Translations under genes and position numbers: made by a program
The notes under the pieces: generated by a model
The model's database searches: none
Told to the model about the DNA's origin: nothing
What the model saw: only the letters and a program-made list of their open reading frames with translations
Assembly (NCBI GenBank): GCA_029570205.1
Contig: JAKQSI010000111.1
Span: 1-64,000, forward strand
DNA length: 64,000 nucleotides
From: Candidatus Omnitrophota bacterium
GTDB taxonomy: Bacteria; Hinthialibacterota; Hinthialibacteria; Hinthialibacterales; JAKPRU01
Direction: 5' to 3'
Shown here: positions 48,220-51,128 of the stretch, piece after piece
Numbering within the stretch: position 1 is the first letter of the stretch
How the letters are laid out: each line of letters opens with the position of its first letter

Positions 48220-48247
48220 TTGACACTTTGCAGTTTTGCACTATAGT
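48220..48247 (+). promoter_or_regulatory. Sigma70-like promoter TTGACA-N16-TATAGT
   Basis: Consensus -35 TTGACA at 48220-48225, 16-bp spacer, TATAGT at 48242-48247, in a 500-bp AT-rich intergenic region upstream of the dockerin-like gene. Confidence 0.65.
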
Positions 48248-48335
48248 TAGAAGGTCTTTGTGCCAGATAGTATTTTTGGGCACTTGAAAAAGAACATATT
48301 CTTTGTCTGATGATTCGTCGAAAGGAGAACTTGGC

Positions 48336-48935
48336 ATGCTTCGGACATCCACGACTCCGCGCGTTGCCCATCTTTTCTGGGTTGGTCTGCTGGTAATAAT
48401 GGTCCCGGTTGCGGTGTATGCGCAATCGGAAACCCCGACGGCAGCACCGGAAACCCCCACCGAAACCCCGACAGTGGTACCGGAGACCCCCACGGAAACG
48501 CCGACGGTCGTACCGGAAACTCCTACCGCTGTCCCGACAAATACTCCGAGACCGACGGAAACGCCGACAGCCAGACCGACGGAAACGCCAACAGCCAGAC
48601 CGACGGAAACGCCGACAGCCACGCCAAAACCGACCGAAAGCCCAACCGCCGTTCCCGAGACTCCCACTTCTACTCCGACGGTGACCCCGCAGCCCGCACG
48701 GCCTGGTGATCTCGATGGAGACGGGGAGCTTTCTTCGGCGGATGCGGATCTCCTTATTGAGTTGATATTGTATGGAACCATAAACGGAGAACCCGCAACC
48801 ACGGAACAGCGCGCTCTCGCCGACCTCACCGGGGACGGAGAGGTGACAGCACAAGATGCGCAAGAAGTCTTCCTGAGACAATCGCTGATGTTATTTTTGA
48901 AGACCATTGACAAAGGACGTATGGCAGAACAGTGA
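48336..48935 (+). CDS. Secreted P/T-rich linker protein with C-terminal dockerin type I-like domain
   Basis: Signal peptide; (P/E)TPT(A/V) repeats; PGDLDGDGELSSADADLLIELILYGTINGEPATTEQRALADLTGDGEVTAQDAQEVFL shows two dockerin Ca-binding repeats. Confidence 0.85.
   Translation: MLRTSTTPRVAHLFWVGLLVIMVPVAVYAQSETPTAAPETPTETPTVVPETPTETPTVVPETPTAVPTNTPRPTETPTARPTETPTARPTETPTATPKPTESPTAVPETPTSTPTVTPQPARPGDLDGDGELSSADADLLIELILYGTINGEPATTEQRALADLTGDGEVTAQDAQEVFLRQSLMLFLKTIDKGRMAEQ
48426..48680 (+). repeat. Degenerate coding tandem repeats encoding ETPT-type linkers, including a 24-bp unit (RPTETPTA)
   Basis: Repeated ccgacggaaacgccgacagccaga-type units. Confidence 0.85.
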
Positions 48936-49109
48936 GCGCCGATTCGGATGGTCAAATGACGTAATCAAGAATAACGCATGTCCCTTCCCAGGGGACGTCC
49001 GTTGTTCTGTTCAATTGGTTTGAAAGATCGATTCGTGATGATGAATACGAAGTACGCAACCAGAAAGGCCAAAACCGGCGGAATGAATGCAAGCGAAAGG
49101 GGATCATCG

Positions 49110-51050
49110 ATGACCTCGACGACCTATTCCATTCCAGTGAGAACGTTCAGGATTGCAGGGATCCTTTTTATCGGGTTCTGTTTTTCGTTAATCACCATGG
49201 GGGTATACGCGCAGGAAACCCCTACGGCGGTCCCGGAGACTCCCACAGAGACTCCAACGGTTATTCCCGAGACTCCCACAGAGACTCCGACGGTCGTTCC
49301 AGAGACCCCGACAGCCATTCCAACGGCGACGCCACGACCGACAGAGTCTCCCACCGCGACTCCACGACCTACAGAATCGCCCACAGCAACGCCGAGGCCG
49401 ACGGAATCTCCTACCGCGACTCCACGACCCACGGAATCGCCTACGGCCACTCCGGTGCCGGTGACTCCCAAGCTGCGTGCGGGGCAGGCGGAAGGCCGAC
49501 CCGGTGATGCCGTTGTTATCGCGATTACCGGTGAAGATATGCCCACGACGGATGCCTTTGGGTTTGATCTGACCTATAACAATCTCCGCTTGAAATTTGC
49601 CGAGATTTTACGTGGTTCACATACTCAGGGGTGGTATGCGGTAAGTGCGGCTGATTTGTCGGGTGTTCTCCGTGTTGTCGGCATTGCGGGAACGGCTCCG
49701 GCAATCTCCGGTAATGGTGAGATCGCTCAAATACGGTTCACGATTCAGTCGAACGCGCCGGAAGGGATTGTCCCGCTTGATTTCAAGGTCATTACGGATG
49801 ATCTGGCTTCGGCGCAAGCGATCTCCGGTTCGATTACTATTCTGCCTGCGGCAGAGACTCCGACAGAGACACCGACGGCGGTTCCGACGGAGACCCCGAC
49901 CTTTACACCGACTCGAACAGCAACACCGGTTCCTACCAGCACACCAACGCTCGGTCCGATAGAAACGCCGACGGCGATTCCAACAGAGACCCCTGTTGGG
50001 ACTCCGACCGTAACGCCTACTATCACGGGCACTCCGATTCCAAGGATGGATCCCGGGCAGTCCATTATAGCTTTGAGCGCGTGGGGCGACATTGCCGCAT
50101 TGGGCAATATCAAGGGCTTCGTGGATGTGGATAACAACGGGTATTTGGATGATCCGTTGCCGCATCCGACCGGACCGTATCCGCCGCGCGTTTCCGGGTA
50201 CACGGCTTTCGACATCGCGAATGTTGTCAACAGTCGGGGGCTTGTTACTCCGGGCTTCCTGGTTATGCTGACCGAACAGGGTAAGACTATCTCGTATCAG
50301 TTTGTGGAAAACCCGTTTGCCGATCAGAAGATTGTCTCGAATGTGTTCCCAGACTTGGCCCGTGATGTCCTTGGCCGAGCCAGCCAGGTACGGTTTGTGG
50401 ATATTGAGATCAATACTGCACTGGACGGATACTTCGCACTAAGCGAGTTGGGCCGTGTGATTTCAGTCAGCGGAACGCCGCGAAATGTGGTGGCGAACGG
50501 TGCGGAAGTAAAACCGTTCCTCGCTTCACCGGAGACAGCAGTTGACTTGGAACTGCTCCCGGGTGGTGGAGTTGCGGGTCAGTTGCAGGGGTACATTCTG
50601 ACCTCCACAGGCCGGATTGTCGCAATCGGCGATGTGCCGCAGCTGATCCCGACCAGAGAACTTCGAAACAAGGGAACGTTCATCGAGATGGACCTTGTGC
50701 TGGGTCAGGCCGGGGAACTTCTTGGAGCGGTCCTGGCGAACGGTGTCGGCGAGTTCTATCTGGCGGCAGTGGAAGGTGCGAATACCTTGCCGCCGGTTGA
50801 TCTGCCGGAAGGCGATTACGCTCGCCTGCTGTTCCCGTTGAGCACACCGCTGGTTCTTCAGGCATTCGAGCTGGTTCCAACCGAAGAAACCTTTGGAATC
50901 ATTGCTCTGGACCGAACCGGCGCGCTCCACACCTTCGGTCGTGCCAGCCGGTATCTGCCGACCCTGGAACAGCTGCAATCGGTGCTTCTCTTGTGGGGAA
51001 CCGCAGGTGTCGATCTCTCCGTTCATCAGTATCCCGGTTTGGGAAAATAA
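49110..51050 (+). CDS. Secreted protein: P/T linker, cohesin-like domain, second P/T linker, beta-propeller-like C-terminus
   Basis: Signal peptide ending VYAQE; PKLRAGQAEGRPGDAVVIAITGEDMPTTDAFGFDLTYNNLRLKFAEI...GEIAQIRFTIQSNAPEGIVPLDFKVITDDLASAQAISGSITI resembles cohesin; C-terminal G-x-LxxxGxV repeats. Confidence 0.8.
   Translation: MTSTTYSIPVRTFRIAGILFIGFCFSLITMGVYAQETPTAVPETPTETPTVIPETPTETPTVVPETPTAIPTATPRPTESPTATPRPTESPTATPRPTESPTATPRPTESPTATPVPVTPKLRAGQAEGRPGDAVVIAITGEDMPTTDAFGFDLTYNNLRLKFAEILRGSHTQGWYAVSAADLSGVLRVVGIAGTAPAISGNGEIAQIRFTIQSNAPEGIVPLDFKVITDDLASAQAISGSITILPAAETPTETPTAVPTETPTFTPTRTATPVPTSTPTLGPIETPTAIPTETPVGTPTVTPTITGTPIPRMDPGQSIIALSAWGDIAALGNIKGFVDVDNNGYLDDPLPHPTGPYPPRVSGYTAFDIANVVNSRGLVTPGFLVMLTEQGKTISYQFVENPFADQKIVSNVFPDLARDVLGRASQVRFVDIEINTALDGYFALSELGRVISVSGTPRNVVANGAEVKPFLASPETAVDLELLPGGGVAGQLQGYILTSTGRIVAIGDVPQLIPTRELRNKGTFIEMDLVLGQAGELLGAVLANGVGEFYLAAVEGANTLPPVDLPEGDYARLLFPLSTPLVLQAFELVPTEETFGIIALDRTGALHTFGRASRYLPTLEQLQSVLLLWGTAGVDLSVHQYPGLGK
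49222..49465 (+). repeat. Coding tandem repeats including a 30-bp unit (ATPRPTESPT)
   Basis: ATPRPTESPT repeated about four times within the linker. Confidence 0.85.
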
Positions 51051-51083
51051 CGGGGGGTGCGACTCTCAATAAGATGATTTATG

Positions 51084-51128
51084 AGGATCAGGAGTCCGGT
51101 TGAAGAAGGCTCCTGATCCTCTTTATTG
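51084..51128 (+). terminator. Rho-independent terminator-like hairpin
   Basis: aggatcaggag / ctcctgatcct perfect 11-bp stem followed by ctttattg, 33 bp after the stop at 51050. Confidence 0.85.

Follow-up and report, generated by a model that had tools for sequence, protein, structure and literature searches.

Type I cohesin and dockerin modules are best known from cellulosomes. Outside of these complexes, cohesins and dockerins are widespread, their purpose being mostly obscure, and for modules encoded by separate paired genes there is one well-characterised case, that of Archaeoglobus fulgidus. Two consecutive genes found in the window, i.e. the whole stretch of 64,000 nucleotides analysed here, raise the question of whether a short dockerin protein (P0001, encoded by gene 1) and the cohesin-propeller protein encoded next to it (P0002, gene 2) are partners. 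The pair lies on a contig labelled C99 in a genome (G000) of 4.39 Mb that is 93% complete, and it is compared here with a congeneric genome (G001) representing a second species of the genus. The locus includes the following features.

48220..48247, plus strand: sigma70-like promoter, with -35 TTGACA, a 16-bp spacer and -10 TATAGT (consensus scan, 11/12 match)
48320..48327, plus strand: ribosome-binding site GAAAGGAG, 8 nt 5' of the gene 1 ATG (read from the sequence)
48336..48935, plus strand: gene 1 (P0001, 199 aa), with signal peptide, ETPT/RPTE linker and C-terminal dockerin (ORF, Pfam; orthologue in G001)
48336..48422, plus strand: putative signal peptide of gene 1, 29 aa, cut after VYA (hydrophobic stretch and V-x-A site, judged by eye)
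48702..48869, plus strand: type I dockerin with loops DLDGDGELSSAD and DLTGDGEVTAQD (PF00404, E 4.7e-10)
49096..49102, plus strand: ribosome-binding site AAAGGGG, 5' of the likely gene 2 start (read from the sequence)
49110..51050, plus strand: gene 2 (P0002, 646 aa), with signal peptide, ETPT linker, cohesin, second PT linker and beta-propeller (ORF, Pfam)
49473..49829, plus strand: cohesin module (PF00963, E 8.3e-7; AlphaFold2 and Foldseek)
50040..51047, plus strand: six-repeat beta-propeller domain of about 320 aa (homologue model; best PDB matches mostly WD40-type)
51085..51119, plus strand: terminator-like hairpin 3' of gene 2 (-21.1 kcal/mol, z -2.7)

Modules of the two proteins

Beyond its signal peptide, linker and dockerin, P0001 contains almost nothing, and any other domain is absent. 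Dockerin_1 (PF00404) matches residues 123-178 with 39.9 bits (cut-off 22.9), and the same module is recovered with an E value of 3.5e-10 in a profile search of the whole genome. Dockerins from the PDB align over both calcium loops in a sequence search (best E 0.0011). With a calcium loop defined by D, N or S at positions 1, 3 and 5 and by D at position 12, the first loop follows the calcium-ligand pattern and the second follows it except for a Thr at position 3. As judged from these features, the C-terminal module is a true type I dockerin.

For gene 2, the start is most likely at 49110, versus 48978 in the ORF list; the in-frame ATG at 48978 is unsupported because 4 bases are inserted shortly after it in G001. 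The G001 orthologue of P0002 is 84% identical. Cohesin (PF00963) matches P0002 at residues 122-235 with 29.7 bits against a cut-off of 24.1, and with 33.8 bits in the genome search. In an AlphaFold2 model spanning residues 117-646, the cohesin region is all-beta with a pLDDT mostly of 79-97, dipping to 57-67 at model residues 61-80. Foldseek's best 50 matches in the PDB consist entirely of cohesin entries, among them the A. fulgidus structure 2xdh, with TM scores by target length of at most 0.81. As modelled, the module is a true cohesin with the beta-sandwich (jelly-roll) fold. The motifs quoted for both modules in the first-pass annotation are present, and the HMM and fold checks that it proposed gave Pfam matches for the two modules and a fold match for the cohesin.

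The C-terminal domain of P0002 has no family match in Pfam or NCBIfam, and a PDB sequence search with a propeller profile returned no useful match. Six repeats and a closing C-terminal strand can be read from its sequence. Because the AlphaFold2 model of P0002 is of modest confidence in this part, the fold assignment relies on an order-level homologue (L067, from genome G007) modelled with a pLDDT of 82 and a pTM of 0.85, and for which WD40-type beta-propellers make up most of the best PDB matches, with TM scores of 0.3-0.5. This agrees with the propeller-like third domain anticipated from the first inspection, which had also argued that this part of the protein is no cellulase.

The ETPT-type linker said to be common to both proteins is borne out at the DNA level, the linkers of the two genes being 68% identical over 238 nt (E 2e-21) in what is low-complexity sequence. 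Another secreted protein of the genus, encoded at L120:2111-3868 (-) in G001 (contig C447), combines the same ETPT linker with a dockerin, and the linker is therefore a common trait of the secretome. Signal peptides were judged by eye to be present on both P0001 and P0002. On inspection, no lipobox, LPXTG motif or Pfam SLH domain was recognisable in either protein.

The locus and its transcription signals

The nearest named relatives of the source bacterium are Candidatus Omnitrophota. A search for related loci returned four named loci of this group, SURF_12 contig QZKN01000016.1 among them, and the closest named record belongs to isolate USCA_maxbin.089 (contig JAKPYU010000283.1). The pair is flanked by an M23/LysM peptidase on the opposite strand and then, downstream, by DUF3047 and an esterase-like hydrolase. 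The neighbouring genes on the G001 contig agree with these flanks in position and N-terminal sequence, and the order of the two genes is the same.

The sigma70-like promoter reported before the pair is found again, and G001 shows no change in its -35 and -10 hexamers or in the distance between them. A promoter-like site alone is weak evidence since the scan yielded 3 sites with scores of 9/12 or better against an expectation of 2.8. After the pair, a strong terminator had been proposed. The hairpin is found there and recurs in G001, with one compensatory change from A-T to G-C in the alignment as read by eye; its T-run is weak. The hairpin was missed by a consensus terminator scanner because its loop is long. 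With promoter, gene order and hairpin all recurring in the second species, the earlier proposal of a two-gene transcription unit is sustained, and the two genes are presumably co-transcribed.

Related modules, their distribution and their origin

Cohesin matches are found on five contigs of G000, namely C99, C117, C109, C86 and C20, the last one under the Pfam cut-off. Three proteins contain dockerins, one each encoded on C99, C26 and C107, with three copies in the C26 protein. Profiles built from the clade's own modules add two matches, both weak dockerins. The pair had been described as self-contained, a view contradicted by these four further cohesin matches and by the two further dockerin-bearing proteins returned by the genome-wide count that had been suggested along with it.

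Several of these proteins have architectures of their own. The C26 protein (L015:9082-12732 (+), 1217 aa) has an NHL propeller at its N-terminus and contains three dockerins, each of them preceded by a cohesin-like stretch, and is a further combination of a propeller with cohesin/dockerin modules. No enzyme family is recognised in the C107 dockerin protein. The C86 cohesin match belongs to a 644-aa protein (L013:8190-10121 (-)) in a cluster adjoining genes judged from sequence to be PilM-like and secretin-like, which suggests a possible role in a pilus or in type II secretion. In a relative, G008, an open-ended frame of 668 aa (L074:3-2006 (+), contig C64) holds two dockerins and two Pfam-level cohesins, or four cohesins by a looser search, and is a small scaffoldin-like protein.

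Besides G000, 13 relatives from the genus, the order and the class were searched. The propeller gene of the C99 type occurs in 8/9 genomes from the order, the exception being G002, a very fragmented assembly of 1270 contigs, in which the pair was sought on contigs C669 and C984 and found on neither. A cohesin is present in three of the eight orthologues (G000, G001 and G008), and the other five have neither the cohesin nor the dockerin gene. The orthologous propeller protein of G008 bears a cohesin with no dockerin gene directly adjoining. The dockerin-only upstream gene, and with it the exact pair, was found in G000 and G001 only, among all the genomes searched.

A paralogous unit of the C117 type is found in seven genomes, where an upstream secreted protein of about 290 aa precedes a cohesin-propeller gene. 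This upstream protein consists of a cohesin-like domain split by a dockerin-like insert (L011:9958-10824 (-), with equivalents in L057, L058, L060, L063, L064 and L066). The insert is weak by Pfam, passing the cut-off in G006 only. In four order-level relatives (L059, L069, L070 and L071), the propeller gene is located a few genes from one encoding a protein with two Ig/Fn3-like stretches, which ends in a C-terminal pair of EF loops, dockerin-like and under the Pfam cut-off.

The propeller tree sets the C99 and C117 types apart (100/100). In the cohesin tree, the P0002 cohesin shares a group (98/96) with the C117-type cohesins from within its genus, and G001_C540 is a member as well. Forcing the three orthologous cohesins together, with that of P0002 beside its G008 orthologue, is rejected (AU p 5e-5), and a clade made up of the P0002 cohesin and the genus's C117-type cohesins alone is neither supported nor rejected (p 0.24). 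Inheritance of the cohesin along with the propeller is ruled out by this rejected grouping and by the five orthologues that have no cohesin. As the tree places the cohesin with a paralogue from the genus instead of with its orthologue, the pair would have been assembled recently by domain shuffling. On this reading, the propeller is the old, conserved, order-wide part, to which the two other modules are likely later, lineage-specific additions. The cohesin probably derives from a paralogue within the genus, or from a relative of that paralogue, and the dockerin was gained as a gene at the genus level. A comparison of the two congeneric copies gives dN/dS values of 0.13 for the dockerin (95% 0.05-0.29), 0.19 for the cohesin (0.11-0.32) and 0.10 for the propeller. 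All three domains are under purifying selection, so that none is a decaying remnant in the genus.

Partnership, rival readings and known systems

The reading given somewhat better than even chances is that one transcription unit encodes a non-cellulosomal cohesin-dockerin pair in which the P0001 dockerin clips onto the P0002 cohesin. Such binding is proposed mainly because of the A. fulgidus precedent, in which the ORF2375 dockerin shows strong and specific binding to the ORF2376 cohesin (PMC9705933). The reading as a whole is supported by both modules exceeding their Pfam cut-offs, by the right cohesin fold and the two calcium loops, by the gene order, promoter hexamers and hairpin kept in G001, by the purifying selection on both modules, and by the paralogous C117 locus, which repeats the same plan. 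With some 5 cohesin genes and 3 dockerin genes across 4.4 Mb, a rough estimate puts chance adjacency at around 1%. Counting against the pairing are the Thr in the second dockerin loop, the G008 cohesin without an adjoining dockerin gene and the five orthologues having neither.

Both proteins would be exported, as indicated by their signal peptides. Once past the inner membrane, P0001 would most likely dock on the P0002 cohesin through its calcium-loaded dockerin. The resulting two-part complex would consist of a flexible Thr/Pro stalk, probably glycosylated on its linkers, and a beta-propeller, the probable binding site of a ligand or of an envelope partner. In this genus, the order-wide propeller protein would have gained a cohesin from a paralogue encoded in the same genome, with a dockerin-only partner gene placed upstream. 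The two genes probably encode a two-part clip serving to hold something outside the cell.

The main rival to an exclusive pair, by itself unlikely, is a wider cohesin-dockerin network in which P0001 docks on the C117 and C109 cohesins and P0002 takes the C26 and C107 dockerins, adjacency reflecting shared regulation. Indeed, the other cohesins of the genome could include the true partner of P0001: G000 encodes several more cohesin and dockerin proteins, relatives carry both modules in a single chain as in the G008 protein, and one dockerin could bind the cohesins of both C117 and P0002, which share a clade and 43% identity. However, a dockerin-only gene is found solely beside the P0002 cohesin gene, and this order is kept in both genomes.

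It is less likely still that the modules do not bind each other at all and are calcium-stabilised or structural domains kept for folding or spacing. Such a role would fit the missing cohesin of five of the eight orthologous propeller proteins and the degenerate dockerin-like loops of the C117-type upstream proteins, mostly under the Pfam cut-off, but the purifying selection on both modules speaks against it, and a protein made of little more than a signal peptide, a linker and a dockerin is hard to account for without a partner. Membership in a cellulosome or another multi-enzyme degradation complex, to which the type I kind of the modules could point, is very improbable and is rejected here because, in a genome of which about 7% is missing, neither a scaffoldin with tandem Pfam-passing cohesins nor a dockerin-bearing enzyme such as a hydrolase was found, the remaining dockerin proteins being the NHL-propeller protein of C26 and that of C107.

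With modules on separate proteins bearing signal peptides, the pair is a further case of the known non-cellulosomal cohesin-dockerin pairs. The closest known system is that of A. fulgidus (ORF2375/ORF2376; O30295 and O30294), where the modules are likewise distributed over two proteins whose ORF numbers are consecutive, and whose cohesin matches that of P0002 with a sequence E value of 0.005 and a fold TM of 0.78 by target length. Binding is verified in that system (PMC9705933), whereas here it is predicted. The A. fulgidus dockerin occupies residues 432-506 of a larger protein, whereas P0001 has no other domain, and P0002, unlike ORF2376, bears a beta-propeller.

Other systems are more distant. 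In the 'Planctosome' proposed for freshwater Planctomycetes (Nemodlikiaceae), peptidases are held via anchoring and adaptor proteins (PMC6461901); the secreted modules are unlinked to cellulose in both cases, whereas a dockerin-bearing peptidase was not found here. ANME archaea, which are also non-cellulolytic, possess extracellular non-cellulosomal modules too, but the multi-cohesin scaffoldin-like proteins and the dockerins on ABC-transporter binding proteins are features of their own (PMC9012536). A giant Omnitrophota ORF, sharing the NCBI phylum label of the relatives found here, includes nine dockerin domains proposed to act as adhesins; it is a single ORF, and paired small dockerin and cohesin genes are not described there (PMC10066038). 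The Clostridial cellulosome has the two module families and the cohesin fold in common with the pair, but no scaffoldin, dockerin-bearing hydrolase or carbohydrate-binding module was found here.

More tentatively, and with rather less than even confidence, the pair may be a dedicated two-protein clip in which the dockerin-only stalk is a detachable handle for a propeller family absent from Pfam and NCBIfam, cohesins being exchanged among the propeller paralogues of a genome and surface assemblies rewired from genus to genus. The unit of a short dockerin protein and a cohesin-propeller protein offers a tractable bacterial case made of two small proteins. If binding is confirmed, engineering would gain a new orthogonal clip, and the propeller family unnamed in both databases would have its first partner. 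The apparent move of the cohesin from a paralogue, while the propeller stayed in place, would show a route by which such assemblies evolve.
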